This document shows positions 6,848-64,000 of a stretch of 64,000 nucleotides of DNA, one piece after another. The translations under genes and the position numbers were made by a program. Within the stretch, counting starts at the first letter, position 1; the number at the start of each line of letters is the position of its first letter. Source of the stretch: an uncultured Schlesneria sp. (GTDB taxonomy: Bacteria > Planctomycetota > Planctomycetia > Planctomycetales > Planctomycetaceae); contig CAILLA010000209.1 of NCBI GenBank assembly GCA_903834925.1, forward strand, positions 38,394-102,393. The letters are read 5' to 3'. The notes beneath the pieces were generated by a model that saw nothing but the letters and a program-made list of their open reading frames with translations, was not told the origin of the DNA and made no database searches.

Positions 6848-6870
6848 CTAGGCTGACTGTTTCAGCCTAG
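6848..6870. terminator. 9-bp-stem hairpin between convergent genes
   Basis: CTAGGCTGA-ctgtt-TCAGCCTAG. Confidence 0.4.
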
Positions 6871-6895
6871 CGCTTGGCCAAGCTTCTGAATTAGG

Positions 6896-6989
6896 GTGCC
6901 ACTGGATGACCGTCTTCGGTCATCCAGTGCTCTTTCACCGGCAGAACGAGAAGCCACTGCTTCTCCGAAGACTCCGAAGCAGTGGCAAC
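6896..6989 (-). repeat. Double-hairpin intergenic element, copy A
   Basis: Gene-sense (minus): gttgccactgcttcggagtcttcggagaagcagtggcttctcgttctgccggtgaaagagcactggatgaccgaagacggtcatccagtggcac; about 30 nt after the PKS stop. Confidence 0.85.
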
Positions 6990-7018
6990 GAATCATAATT
7001 CTGCAGTTTGGCAAAGCA

Positions 7019-10000
7019 CTACTCTTGGGCCCCTGCAGAAAACTCTTTCATCTGATAAATGATTCGCCCATCGACGGACAAAAAACCTTCGGCCGTTAAC
7101 TGCTTCGTGGCATCATCAACGTGCTTGATGACCGCAGTGACGGTCACGAGTTTGTCTCGAGGGATGACTTGGCCTCGATAGACCCATTCATGTTTCCCGT
7201 GAATTTGACCTTCTGGTTTGTGGACGACGGGGGTGGTGAACTGAGCCTTTTCGCCGAGTCGCCATCGCTTGGCCGCATAGAATTTTACCAGTTGAAAAAA
7301 CGATTCCAGACCAAGCGAACCTGGCACCACCGGGTCCTGGTAGAAGTGGGCCTTAAAGAACCACGATGTCGGGTCGACGGTCGTCGTACCGATGACAAAA
7401 CCGTTTCCGAACGGTCCGTTCGTTAAAGACAACTTCACATCATCGATCATCTGGAAATGCAAGTCAGCATATGGGGGTTTGTCGAGGTAATGAAAATTGA
7501 GGCAATGCTGATCTTCTGTGGGTGATGGGACAAATGGTTTCGCATCACGAATGCCAATCTGGTTCATAAGCGACGCTTTGGAGAAGAATCCAAAATACGT
7601 GTTGCCGACGTAAACAGGTTCGTCATTGCACCTGAGGTCAAAGTCGTAGTGCTGGATGATCATGCCGCCCGAATTCGAAACTCGCGTCATTTTCACTGTC
7701 GTCGTCAGTGTTCCCGATGCGGCCGTCACGTCGCGGAACTGAGTTGCCGTGCCACCCAGGTTGCGGAACGACAGGTCGGTGTCGCTGGTCAATGCCGATC
7801 CGACATACGCGGCCAGCCATCCACACGGTTGCAGCGCCGTCTCAAGCAAGACGGCAAACGGCATTCGAGTCTGGCGGTTGGATGCAAAATACCAGGCATC
7901 TGGCGGAACGTCGTACTGTGCCACAACCTCACCCCCTGGTTTCAGTACCCAGGGCTCACACCCGCTAATCGCGACGATCCGGTCCAGAAACTGAAACGGG
8001 GGGCCGGGGAGTCTCGCGATCATTCGATCCGAATCAAAAACGCGATAATGTTCGCCAAACGCGTCCGAAGGGTTTCCAATGGCGAACGCAGTGATACGAT
8101 CCGTGTCGAACAGGGCTGGACGTCGGTCGTATTTCGGGTGAACGGGAAGCTGTGAATCTCTCGTACCGAAAGGTGTCGCAGGCACGCCACCCACTGTCGA
8201 CTGTCCTGACCAAAGGCGTTCGACCATGTCGCGTGTCAGCCCGGACAATCGGACTGACATATCGGTAATCTCAACGATTGGTTTGCCATCGGCATACATC
8301 AGGGCATCGGCAAGACAGTAAGGCGTTCCGGACTCGGTGTATCCAATCTCCTTCAACGTGATTTCGTACCAGACCTTTTTCGTACTGGCGAGAACCTGGC
8401 CGCGGCACTTCAGGCGACTGCGAACTTCCGGGATCGGCTCATAAGCCAACTGTCCCGATTCTCCGACCCATCCCATGCGCAACAGGTAAATTCGCAGCGT
8501 ATGCATGCAGCATTCATACATAAGCGTCCCAGGCATCACCTGATCGTCACAGAAATGACAGGTCAGGAACCAGTCATTTGGATGAATATCCAATTCACCC
8601 AGGATCATCCCCAGGCCAAATTTCCCGCCACTGGGATCGAGCTTTAGTACGCGATCAATTAACCACATCTTCGACCGTTGGCTGGAAGCCGATTCAGGCA
8701 GTGTGGCGAGTTGATTCCGAGAATCAACGCCAATCTCGTGAAGATACTTAAGTCCCGGGATGGTCGCTGGACAGTCCAATAAAATCCGCTGAAATGCCGG
8801 GCCGAAACAACTGCCAAGCTCCCCTTGTCGTAACGCCAGCAATTGTCGATCGTCATAACTCTCAATGCTCATCGGAACCATGTCGTTCCAGTCTGCCGGT
8901 CGTTTTCCTGGTCGAGGTTGTCGGTCAAGAGCTGTATGAACGATTCCCTTCCCGCCAGCCAGTTCCGCTTCAGTAAAGAAGCCGGCACACCCTTCCCGCA
9001 TCGTTAACAGAGGTTGACCGTTGATCGTGGCGTCGAACTCGAAGCGGAACAGATATGTCTGGCCCTGACGGAAGAAGTGATTAATCCGGATGTCGTAATG
9101 AATTGTCTCACCCGGCCCTGGCAACTCACGGTGGAACGTCACGACGGCATCCAGCAATCGATAACTGGCGATCCCCTTCGTCTCAAAATCGATCCCTAGC
9201 CACCCGGACAAAAACAGGTCAGCCTGACCCGCTTCAACGGCAATACAGGTCGGAATCCGATTGCAATCGAGATACCACGCACCGGGATGAATATCATGTT
9301 CTGTGACGACTCGACCGGACGTCATCGAGAGTGGTTCGCCATCAATTTCAAGAATGCGGTCGACCAGCATCAGTGGTTCATCAGGGAGTCTGACTCGAGT
9401 GGGATGTTGATCGATCTCGGCAAACGTTTTTCCGAGCACGCAACCGATCTTGCCGATCGCGAATTCCATACACTGCGAACGCGACAATGATCGGGGCGGA
9501 ATTGCAGGAATGACCTCGGTCGACAACTCGGACGTCAGCTCATTCGTGTCGATTGGGGTTGGGTTCGATGCCGATCTGTTTCCATTCGATGAAGCAGCCG
9601 TTTCAATTGGCTCACCACCGGCAAGTCGCGATAGCAATTCGAGTTGATCGGCCATGATCCGTTGCGCCTCGGCTGACACACGGAGATACGTTTCGTGTGT
9701 CTTCATTCGGGCGGCCAGCAGATCGTCCAACTGTGTCATAACATTCATTCCGAAAGGTTCAGGTGTAAGGTGTTTCGGTTTTGTTGATGCGGAAGGTTTC
9801 GCTTCGATCGATGCCAAACGTGAGCCGTTTTCCACAGCGTTCGGTTTGTGTGCCTTCTCAAATTCATGACTGATCGTGATCGGTCGTAATTGAAATCGCC
9901 AGCCGTTTGAAGGCGTTGGGATCGAGAATCGTGGCCCGCCTGTTTCGGTCACGATTTCGCGATTTGACGTGACTTCAGTCGACAGGCTTAGTTGCGAGTG

Positions 10001-15074: not shown

Positions 15075-15168
15075 GTGCTACTGCTCCGTCCTCGGTCAAA
15101 AAATGCTCTTCAACGATGACGAAAACCGAGAAGCCACTGCGTCGGAGAAGACTCCGATGCCGTGGCAC
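15075..15168 (-). repeat. Double-hairpin intergenic element, copy B (degenerate)
   Basis: Gene-sense: gtgccacggcatcggagtcttctccgacgcagtggcttctcggttttcgtcatcgttgaagagcattttttgaccgaggacggagcagtagcac; 30 nt after the aldolase stop. Confidence 0.75.
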
Positions 15169-17426: not shown

Positions 17427-17526
17427 GTGCCACTGTATCGTAGTCTTCTCCGACGCAATGGCTTCGTTTTTTTTCGACATCGGTTTGAAGAGCACTGATT
17501 GACCGGGGACGGTCAATCAGTGGCAC
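17427..17526 (+). repeat. Double-hairpin intergenic element, copy C
   Basis: gtgccactgtatcgtagtcttctccgacgcaatggcttcg...gaagagcactgattgaccggggacggtcaatcagtggcac; 27 nt after the upstream stop. Confidence 0.8.
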
Positions 17527-19315: not shown

Positions 19316-19450
19316 GGAAATCCATTTCCGAGTCGGCTAACGAGGTGTAACGCGCATTATTCAAAATTTTGGAGCAGTTTCGGTTTTCGTAGTGGAGGCT
19401 TTCAGCCTCCGCGAATCGGAGTGAACGCTGGATGGTCCGTACGAGTTGTT

Positions 19451-19479
19451 GTGGCGCACGGGCTGAAGCCCATGCTACG
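19451..19479. repeat. 29-bp repeat gtggcgcacgggctgaagcccatgctacg, copy 1
   Basis: Identical to 21048-21076; contains palindrome GGGCTgaAGCCC. Neighbouring hairpin GGAGGCTttcAGCCTCC at about 19394. Confidence 0.8.
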
Positions 19480-20709: not shown

Positions 20710-21047
20710 GTGCGATCCTGATCTCTAGCGAACTGGTTCCCTCGCCACATCGGGTCGCCGGAAACTCTGTCGGCAGTATAGTTCACCTGAATCCCCGAAA
20801 GTAACCAACCTGCCTGCCTCGTCGGATTCGATCGTGCTTTGAGCGAGCAACGAAACGAACGAAATGACTCCAACAGTCGCTGGAACTTGGCTTTCAATCG
20901 TTAAAAGCTGCCGAAGCAGAACCACCTGAATAATCGTTAACGATTGCCCTCTGTTTTCGCCGATGACGGATGTAGCGTGGGAATTTCTGCGTTGCCTATG
21001 GGGTTGTTGGTTTTTGTTGTGTGGGCTTTTTGCTCGGACAAGATTTC

Positions 21048-21076
21048 GTGGCGCACGGGCTGAAGCCCATGCTACG
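21048..21076. repeat. 29-bp repeat gtggcgcacgggctgaagcccatgctacg, copy 2
   Basis: Identical to 19451-19479; lies upstream of the porin gene. Confidence 0.8.
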
Positions 21077-36633: not shown

Positions 36634-36673
36634 GAAGAACACTGCTTAACTGAGTGCTGTCAAGCAGTGCCAC
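36634..36673 (+). repeat. Double-hairpin intergenic element, half copy E (second hairpin only)
   Basis: gaagaacactgcttaactgagtgctgtcaagcagtgccac; resembles gaagagcactg...cagtggcac of copies C and D. Confidence 0.5.
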
Positions 36674-38016: not shown

Positions 38017-38071
38017 GCCGAAGCGGATCAGACTCGATCGCTCGCAAACCCTACAAAAAAGGGAAGTTGAT

Positions 38072-38185
38072 CAACTTTGCCAACTTTGCCAACCGTCTGA
38101 AGGCAACGCCAAGGCAGCGGTGGGACATCGAAGACTTGTCCGCACCCTACGGGCCAGTCGGGCTGAACTTTGCCAACTTGGTCAA
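38072..38185. repeat. AACTTTGCCAAC repeat tract
   Basis: caactttgccaactttgccaac at 38072-38093 and aactttgccaacttggtcaac at about 38165-38185; related sequence at 63281-63349. Confidence 0.5.
38120..38152 (+). repeat. Hairpin repeat gtgggacatcgaagacttgtccgcaccctacg, copy 2
   Basis: Close match to the reverse complement of 14182-14214. Confidence 0.6.
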
Positions 38186-57419: not shown

Positions 57420-58643
57420 ATGAACAAACAAGATTCGGTTTGCATTACGGGCGTTGGTCTGACATCTTCGATTGGCCATGGGTATGAGGAATTTGCCTCG
57501 AATTTGCTTTCCGGTGTTTCGGGAATTGAACGTGTTTCGGCCTTTGAAGTCACCGACCATCCAAGTCAGATCGCCAGTTTGATCGGACAAATCCCCTGCC
57601 CGGAAGGTTTTGACGAAACCGAATTTCGTTCACGACTGCGAATCGAACAATGCGGTATCTGGTGTGCCGAGTCGGCGCTCAGGGATGCGGGTTGGCAAAA
57701 GCGACCCGAGGGACTCCGGATCGGCCTTGTTCTCGGACTGGGAGCGGAATGGATGCAGAGCTGGGAAATGGATTATCGGCGTGGCGGACGTCGAGCCTTT
57801 GATCCGACCGAAGAGCCTGCAGGACTGACCACAAAGTTACATCGATTGCTGGATCTTCGGGGTCCACAACTGACCATCTCGGCCGCCTGTGCCAGCGGGA
57901 ACTGGGCGCTCTCTCAAGGGCGTCGCTGGCTGGAACTGGGTTGGGTCGATATCTGTCTTGCTGGAGCGTGCGATATTGGTGTGACACCTCTTTCGCTGGC
58001 GGGATTCGGCAATCTTCGAGCGCTTTCTCGAAAGAATCAGGCTCCTCACGCAGCACTTCGTCCGTTCGACAAAGATCGAGACGGCATGGTACTGGGTGAA
58101 GGAGGTGCGATTTTCGTCCTCGAAAAAACGTCGAAAGCCATGGAACGAGGTGCTCGTCGTTATGCCAACGTTTCCGGTTTCGGTGCCACAAGCGACGCTC
58201 ATCACATGGTCATTCCTTGTCCAGAACCACAGCAGGGAATCGCTGCCATGAAGCTGGCACTGGCTGATGCTCAAATCGCGCCAGGTGACATCGACTACAT
58301 CAATGCTCACGCAACGGGAACACCCGTCGGGGACATCTGTGAAGCAAAAATTCTACAGTCGGTGCTCGGGGAATCAGTGAAGGATGTTCCGATCAGTTCG
58401 ACCAAAGCGTTGACCGGCCATCTTTTGAGCGCTGCCGCAGCAATTGAAGCGGTCGCGTGTCTGGTCGCTCTGGAACGGCAGGTAACACCTCCTACAGTGA
58501 ATCTTGAAGATCCCGATCCTGATTGTGCCATGCTGAATCACGTACGAAACGAGCCTCAACCCCGGCCAGTCGACGTCACGGTCTCAAATTCCTTCGGCTT
58601 CGGTGGAAACAACACCTGTCTGGTTCTGAAGAAGGCTGCATAA
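57420..58643 (+). CDS. Beta-ketoacyl-ACP synthase (FabF-like)
   Basis: VCITGVGLTSSIGHG, LTISAACASGNWALSQG (active Cys), NAHATGTPVGD, TKALTGHLLSAAAAIEA, NSFGFGGNNTCLVL. Confidence 0.93.
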   Translation: MNKQDSVCITGVGLTSSIGHGYEEFASNLLSGVSGIERVSAFEVTDHPSQIASLIGQIPCPEGFDETEFRSRLRIEQCGIWCAESALRDAGWQKRPEGLRIGLVLGLGAEWMQSWEMDYRRGGRRAFDPTEEPAGLTTKLHRLLDLRGPQLTISAACASGNWALSQGRRWLELGWVDICLAGACDIGVTPLSLAGFGNLRALSRKNQAPHAALRPFDKDRDGMVLGEGGAIFVLEKTSKAMERGARRYANVSGFGATSDAHHMVIPCPEPQQGIAAMKLALADAQIAPGDIDYINAHATGTPVGDICEAKILQSVLGESVKDVPISSTKALTGHLLSAAAAIEAVACLVALERQVTPPTVNLEDPDPDCAMLNHVRNEPQPRPVDVTVSNSFGFGGNNTCLVLKKAA

Positions 58644-58661: not shown

Positions 58662-58760
58662 GTGCCACTGCTTCGGAGTCTTCGGAGAAGCAGTGTCTTC
58701 GCTTTCTCTCACTCGAAATCAAAGAGCACTGCATGACCGAAGACGGTCATACAGTGGCAC
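58662..58760 (+). repeat. Double-hairpin intergenic element, copy D
   Basis: gtgccactgcttcggagtcttcggagaagcagtgtcttcgctttctctcactcgaaatcaaagagcactgcatgaccgaagacggtcatacagtggcac; 18 nt after the KS stop. Confidence 0.85.
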
Positions 58761-63049: not shown

Positions 63050-64000
63050 CGAAGTGAAAGAAGGAATTCGGAATGAAGGATTCACGCCGAGCCGCCGACA
63101 CCGTTCTGACAGCATCCTGCCCATACGCGATTGCCTTCCCTTCATTACCTTCGTTCGAATCCCACCATTCCCCCCCCCAGGCGAGCCGAGGATGTGAATC
63201 CGCGGATTCTTCGCCTTTCTCCTCTGGAATAACTGCGCTCTGCCACCTCTGCCGGTACTCATCACAGACATCGAAAAAAGTTGGCAAAGTTGGCAGAGTT
63301 CCTATTTTCATAGGCTTTTATGGAATTGAACTTGGTCAACTTCGTCAACACGTTGTGCGAGTGGTCTCCCGACCCCGCACAGCCTCAAGGCAAGCAACGA
63401 ACCCGCACGTACCAGCCCGCACCGATTGATGGCTGCGGGGGCGATCCGTAATTCATTCCAAGTTGTCAAAGATCAATTGTCGCTGTCTGGCGTTGCCTTT
63501 CGGGAAATCCGGGCAAGCGATTAGCCGTAAAATGGGCTTCAGCCCGTTCCAGTCAACAGCTTGAGCAGGCACACGGCCCATACGGACGCGATATCAGTGC
63601 AATGAAGGCAACCTTGACTTCCTGTGAGTTGTCGTCGACCTTTTTTGCAAACGCCAAGAAGTGACATAAAAACACAAAGACAAATGTCTGTGGTCAATTG
63701 AAAAATGAGATAACTTTTTAACGATTCGAGCGTGCTTATGGAGATGACTTGTGTTCAGGTGGCAAAACAAGCAGAAAGGACAGGTTCGTGCCTGCCGATC
63801 CTGACGAATTGCGATAGCCGGTAGAATATCGAACGATTGCAAGAAAAATCGCCACAACGAAACGACTAAGTCTGAATCGTTTAACCCGCAGCCACAGGCG
63901 CAGGCGAATCGGCGTCCACCCGATTTCTTCGAACGTCGCACAGCTTTGATTGTGTAAGATGCGGTACGTCCGCGGCAATGCCCAAGCGAAAAATGACACC

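Follow-up and report, generated by a model that had tools for sequence, protein, structure and literature searches.

The dispersed double-hairpin element found in the window, the whole 64-kb stretch of Schlesneria DNA analyzed here, is very probably a REPIN, an inverted dimer of the BIME type, most likely non-autonomous and moved as single-stranded DNA by a RAYT (an HUH-Y1 nuclease) that is dedicated to it and encoded elsewhere in the same genome. It is a known kind of element with an unusual end tag, GTGC, which is common to related systems across the phylum. In the mechanism that we infer, the RAYT would bind the folded hairpin, GTGC would serve as the guide tetranucleotide that selects a nearby cut site, and the enzyme would excise the dimer and reinsert it elsewhere, perhaps still at present. 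Copies would survive preferentially in intergenic positions, just past stop codons, and some may have travelled in a longer CTAG-bordered shell, with either the RAYT or a second transposase as the mover.

All the copies claimed in the preliminary description, four double hairpins and one half copy, were found at their positions, with a mean column identity of 82% in the alignment, and the strands had to be corrected, as two of the four copies lie on the minus strand. The features of the window are as follows.

6867-7022, no strand: extended unit at the 6896 copy, consisting of CTAG, an inverted end (CGCTTGGCCAAGCTTCTGAATTA...), the REPIN, an inverted end (...ATAATTCTGCAGTTTGGCAAAGCA), and CTAC
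6896-6989, minus strand: full h1-h2 dimer; on the plus strand h2 comes first, then h1
15075-15168, minus strand: double-hairpin copy with a decayed h2 half
15075-15110, minus strand: decayed h2 half of that copy, its stem complementarity gone
15130-15168, minus strand: h1 hairpin of that copy
17427-17526, plus strand: full h1-h2 dimer between co-directional genes
36634-36672, minus strand: solitary h2 hairpin, the half copy (previously given as 36634-36673)
58662-58760, plus strand: double-hairpin copy
58662-58700, plus strand: left half of that dimer, REP hairpin h1 (CGGAG) with 5′ tag GTGC
58722-58760, minus strand: right half of that dimer, REP hairpin h2 (TGACCG) with 5′ tag GTGC, which is GCAC on the plus strand

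Read in one orientation, the unit of roughly 100 bases begins with GTGC and h1 (CACTG..CGGAG..TCTT..CAGTG, then TCTTC), followed by a spacer of ~20 nt and by an inverted GTGC and h2, the latter reading from its tag GTGC + CACTG..TGACCG..TCTT..CAGTG, then CTCTTC; both tags are unpaired and point outward. In contrast to the ends described at first, the 58662 copy reads GCAGTGTCTTC instead of GCAGTGGCTTC, and one end of the 6896 copy reads GTTGCC. In the 15075 copy, the stem of the TGACCG hairpin is lost, and only the 15130-15168 hairpin passes the profile search. The stop codon of the ORF at 57420-58643 lies 18 nt before the h1 hairpin of the 58662 copy.

The genome-wide check proposed at the outset found hundreds of copies, not just the few of the window. 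In the 9.02-Mb draft assembly of the host (G000), the pattern GTGCCACTG-N10-35-CAGTG gave 290 + 278 = 568 strict matches, compared with 1 + 4 = 5 for the reversed pattern; these counts, along with folding z-scores of -4.0 to -8.1, rule out chance as the source of the copies. Searching 1.196 Mb with h1 and h2 profiles detected 142 REPs at E<0.01; on the reversed sequence, no E-value was better than 0.16. This 1.2-Mb sample consists of contigs mostly carrying listed matches, and because its density of strict matches (~68 per Mb) is close to that of the whole genome (63 per Mb), the total can be extrapolated to some 1000 REPs. Those detected in the sample group into 56 dimers plus 30 singles, and every one of the dimers is heterotypic, with one h1 and one h2 in inverted orientation and the tags outward; same-type pairs numbered 0. 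The GTGC tag is conserved at 96-100% per position across copies. We also observed perfectly symmetric single hairpins, GTGCCACTG...CAGTGGCAC, with tags at both ends (G000:C11:24702-24739 and C12:14809-14846), which are probably collapsed dimers.

A search for a RAYT (TnpA_REP) gene, suggested in the preliminary description, located one in the same genome, at G000:C171:4126-4842, with an identical h1-h2 double hairpin on both sides. The gene was found through an alignment of four REP-flanked RAYTs from relatives, in which GTGCCACTG hairpins, with a stem that differs per genome, surround the genes of Y1 transposases. Its protein (P0001), the one strong match in the genome, carries the HUH motif MPEHVH and the catalytic tyrosine in YIHQNP (Y---NP), and scores 90.2 bits (cutoff, 80) against NCBIfam NF047646 (REP_Tyr_transpos, "REP-associated tyrosine transposase"), so that motifs, low copy number, and curated model all place it in the RAYT (TnpA-REP) family. 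A profile match to PDB 4er8 (E=9.5e-11) and an AlphaFold model with pLDDT 82, whose best fold match was again 4er8 (E=2e-9), point the same way, 4er8 being the E. coli RAYT (TnpA-REP) bound to a REP. The ortholog in G001 is 87% identical and lies among five h1-h2 units, and REP-flanked RAYTs are also present in G013, G006, and other genera. As a probe, PF01797 missed the true gene (18.5 bits, below cutoff) and returned other Y1 genes; one of these, on C306 with an element nearby, was considered as the cognate RAYT and rejected, as it belongs to another group with other repeats. Counting against the favored explanation, the close relatives G002 and G005 contain 103 and 195 strict REP matches without a clear ortholog of this RAYT, representing either orphaned populations or assembly gaps. 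Copies thus seem able to persist in the absence of the gene, provided that it was not lost from the draft assemblies.

The two alternative folds put forward for the element are both predicted, as the 58662 copy folds into the long outer stem and the 6896 copy into a pair of local hairpins. Stem covariation also proved real: double changes occur at 7 of 13 pairs, in 26 cells compared with 5.4 after shuffling (h2 copies), and 95% of the stem cells of h2 copies are paired, with a mid-stem A.C mismatch as a recurrent alternative to a T-A pair. A mid-stem irregularity is functional in E. coli REPs too (PMC8266576). Covariation reflects pairing that is kept now or was kept while the copies spread, and it does not distinguish DNA from RNA; recognition of the DNA hairpin by the RAYT would account for it equally well. 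It would also fit selection on DNA structure, as would the retained complementarity, if the repeats were kept as binding or supercoiling sites for gyrase, IHF, or the nucleoid, a role suggested for the BIMEs of E. coli, and were no longer mobile. REPs of other species are reported to bind such proteins (PMC6006769), but some copies, such as that at 15075 in the window and that at 58662 in G002, have decayed freely, which argues against strong selection on each copy, and we consider this explanation very unlikely.

Using a simple ORF caller on the 1.2-Mb sample (895 ORFs, 84% of the sequence coding), we found 63 of 74 independent sites outside called ORFs and 11 overlapping them. The copies are mainly extragenic. 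Most sites have the nearest stop codon at 8-41 nt. Among 54 sites, 20 are in convergent, 28 in co-directional, and 6 in divergent regions, compared with 84, 283, and 135, respectively, of 502 intergenic regions of at least 100 nt. The bunching just past stop codons, the enrichment of convergent regions (20/54 vs 84/502), and the depletion of divergent ones (6/54 vs 135/502) would suit an element that is mainly a 3′-UTR RNA, acting as a bidirectional terminator or mRNA stabilizer at gene ends, as would the pyrimidine-rich tract inward of each hairpin and a scored terminator-like match. However, other REPs show the same placement near gene ends (PMC3733652), suggesting that an RNA function is not needed to explain it and that avoidance of promoters and coding sequence suffices. 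An Rfam search of the window matched no family above its gathering score. A fixed orientation, as expected of a 3′-UTR element, was considered and rejected: although h1 is nearest the upstream stop in all four copies of the window, h1 and h2 show no preferred order with respect to the co-directional gene upstream in the genome sample (11 to 9, as by chance). Moreover, placement leaves the flanked RAYT, the tag rule, and the clean absence of copies in relatives unexplained, making an RNA element quite unlikely. Of the two possibilities entertained in the preliminary description, REP/BIME-like or RNA regulatory, the first is therefore upheld by the high copy number, the intergenic inverted dimers, and the cognate RAYT among identical copies, while the RNA branch finds no support, given the lack of an Rfam match and of a fixed orientation and the equally good account of the covariation that DNA-hairpin recognition would give.

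Comparison with relatives revealed orthologous sites with and without the element, which show gain or loss; no new insertion event was observed. The 17427 copy is present in G001 and G002 and missing at the orthologous site of G005 and G006, while at 58662 G001 has the element, G002 has a decayed form of it, and other sequence replaces it in G005. The 6896 copy is missing in G001, and the inserted piece there is ~148 nt (about 6871-7018), with CTAG and CTAC as the borders of the unit and a single CTAG in G001. A second empty site (C58) had no CTAG. The moved unit can therefore exceed the coordinates first described, as some copies are contained in a ~150-bp shell. Inverted ends TGC[GT]TTGTCAA outside the tags were found on both sides of 13 of 55 dimers, which thus carry the terminal inverted repeats of a MITE at both ends, and on at least one side of 20 of 55. 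In several units, the length between and including the two CTAGs is exactly 160 nt (C39:26378-26537, C58:6556-6715, C139:21155-21314, C209:9895-10054, and others), and G001, G002, and G005 contain the 150-nt unit at other places as well.

These observations raise the possibility that a ~150-bp MITE, targeted to CTAG and mobilized by a DDE transposase, is the true mobile unit and holds the REPIN as its cargo or core, in which case the paired CTAGs would be a candidate target-site duplication. The exact CTAG-to-CTAG units with their inverted ends, the recurrence of the 150-nt unit in three relatives, and the site with a single CTAG in G001 are all in agreement with it. Nevertheless, recognizable shells surround a minority of the dimers, the copies flanking the RAYT have no shell, and no autonomous (DDE) element with TGC[GT]TTGTCAA ends was seen in 1.2 Mb and 30 loci. 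An identical footprint would be expected from a single-strand transposase that cuts at one tetranucleotide on either side, so that shell-bearing units were moved either by a second CTAG-targeting transposase or by the RAYT itself. We consider the MITE explanation unlikely.

The GTGC tag is a property of this RAYT clade. By protein similarity alone, homologs of this RAYT were found in Schlesneria, in many other Planctomycetota, and in one Zixibacteria MAG. We counted tags at 27 RAYT loci chosen in this way, nearly all of Planctomycetota, with loci picked for their hairpins excluded, and found GTGC-tagged hairpins at 19, on both sides at 14, while GTAG hairpins were found at 1 and GTGG at 7. At 32 other Y1 loci in the same planctomycete genomes, GTGC was present at 3 and on both sides at 0, whereas GTAG and GTGG do flank both sides. 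Stems are wholly unlike among loci of the clade (CACTG, CACGGC, CATGC, CATGG, and CCTGCC).

In E. coli TnpA-REP, the region contacting the tag includes W94, Q95, E100, H101, and R104 (PMC6006769). Profile alignment to 4er8 places an invariant Asp of the GTGC RAYT clade opposite E100 and, unlike in E. coli, no conserved Arg opposite R104, differences that we regard as tentative because the alignment is short there. The tag has been shown to pick the cut dinucleotide in a Marinomonas system, where GTAC leads to cutting at GA and GT (PMC8266576), and by the same rule, GTGC predicts cutting at GC or GA, not CT. We consider it a real possibility, if short of probable, that GTGC marks a third REP superfamily, essentially restricted to Planctomycetota, in which the guide tetranucleotide read by the RAYTs is a different one, so that the dinucleotides they cut differ too (predicted GC/GA vs CT), and that one Schlesneria REPIN lineage is now the core of a ~150-bp CTAG-targeting mobile unit.

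As in P. fluorescens REPINs and E. coli BIMEs, tagged hairpins occur in high copy number as inverted ~100-nt dimers with the tags outward, mostly extragenic and near gene ends, along with a low-copy RAYT gene that has such REPs on its flanks, which is the broad definition of a REPIN/BIME. Exclusively heterotypic pairs are likewise known from the GTAG-3 dimers of Enterobacteriaceae (PMC3733652). The differences are the tag, GTGC instead of GT[AG]G, the lack of a conserved RAYT residue opposite R104, and the CTAG-bordered shell around some planctomycete copies. Tagged stem-loops, dimers, and a position after genes are also shared with the GTAG and CGTC superfamilies (PMC3733652), but the planctomycete tag belongs to neither one: the GTAG superfamily is defined by GTAG, GTGG, and similar tags, and CGTC repeats have no associated transposase (PMC3733652), whereas the GTGC repeat has a RAYT. 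Class 3 TnpA-Y1 elements, described from Planctomycetes and Acidobacteria (PMC6006769), also combine planctomycete hosts, high-copy hairpins around a Y1 gene, and a non-canonical tag, but this system is separated from them by its tag (GTGC, not CnGA) and by its tyrosine motif, as Y---NP, the class 2 motif, replaces Y----Q (PMC6006769). That no family could be named at first therefore remains true of the tag, which fits neither of the superfamilies described, GTAG and CGTC, and is otherwise resolved as REPIN/BIME. Searches of the open-access literature turned up no account of a REP family tagged with GTGC or of the Schlesneria repeats, although this type may be among the REPs of the planctomycete R. 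baltica, for which numerous tyrosine transposases are reported as well (PMC3733652).

The idea that the tag guides the cut site has so far been based on mutants and a small number of GTAG systems. A clade in which GTGC is naturally fixed and which has RAYTs of its own lends itself directly to a test, as the cut site should shift with the tag if the guide rule is true, and since stems diverge completely between species while the tag is constant, tag reading can be separated from hairpin reading. In addition, hundreds of intergenic repeats that lack annotation in planctomycete genomes can now be assigned to a named family.

Other repeats were observed beside the REPINs. A hairpin repeat, GTAGCCATCATCGCTCCGCGTGATGAGC, adjoins them at G000:C128:29864, C20:90799, C57:14483, and C37:21527 and is also found at site 15075 in G002 (L205) and G005 (L204), forming a mosaic of GTAG-tagged and GTGC-tagged families. 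A third type of outer flank, inverted GTGAAGGATTTTTC, adjoins REPINs at G000:C13:4927, C20:38115, C20:87411, C81:116, and L033; at L033, near the C306 Y1 gene, a AGCCCAGGGC repeat lies beside a different Y1 transposase. In the window, three copies of a second repeat, GTAGCATGGGCTTCAGCCCGTGCGCCAC (and its reverse), are located at 19438-19479, 21035-21076, and, inverted, 63510-63583, and resemble a canonical GTAG-tagged REP. An inverted 42-nt repeat (AAAGTTGGCAAAGTTG...) with 76% complementarity is present at 38046-38087 and 63277-63318, and positions 131-634 contain six 72-nt tandem repeats that are 61-85% identical and possibly coding.
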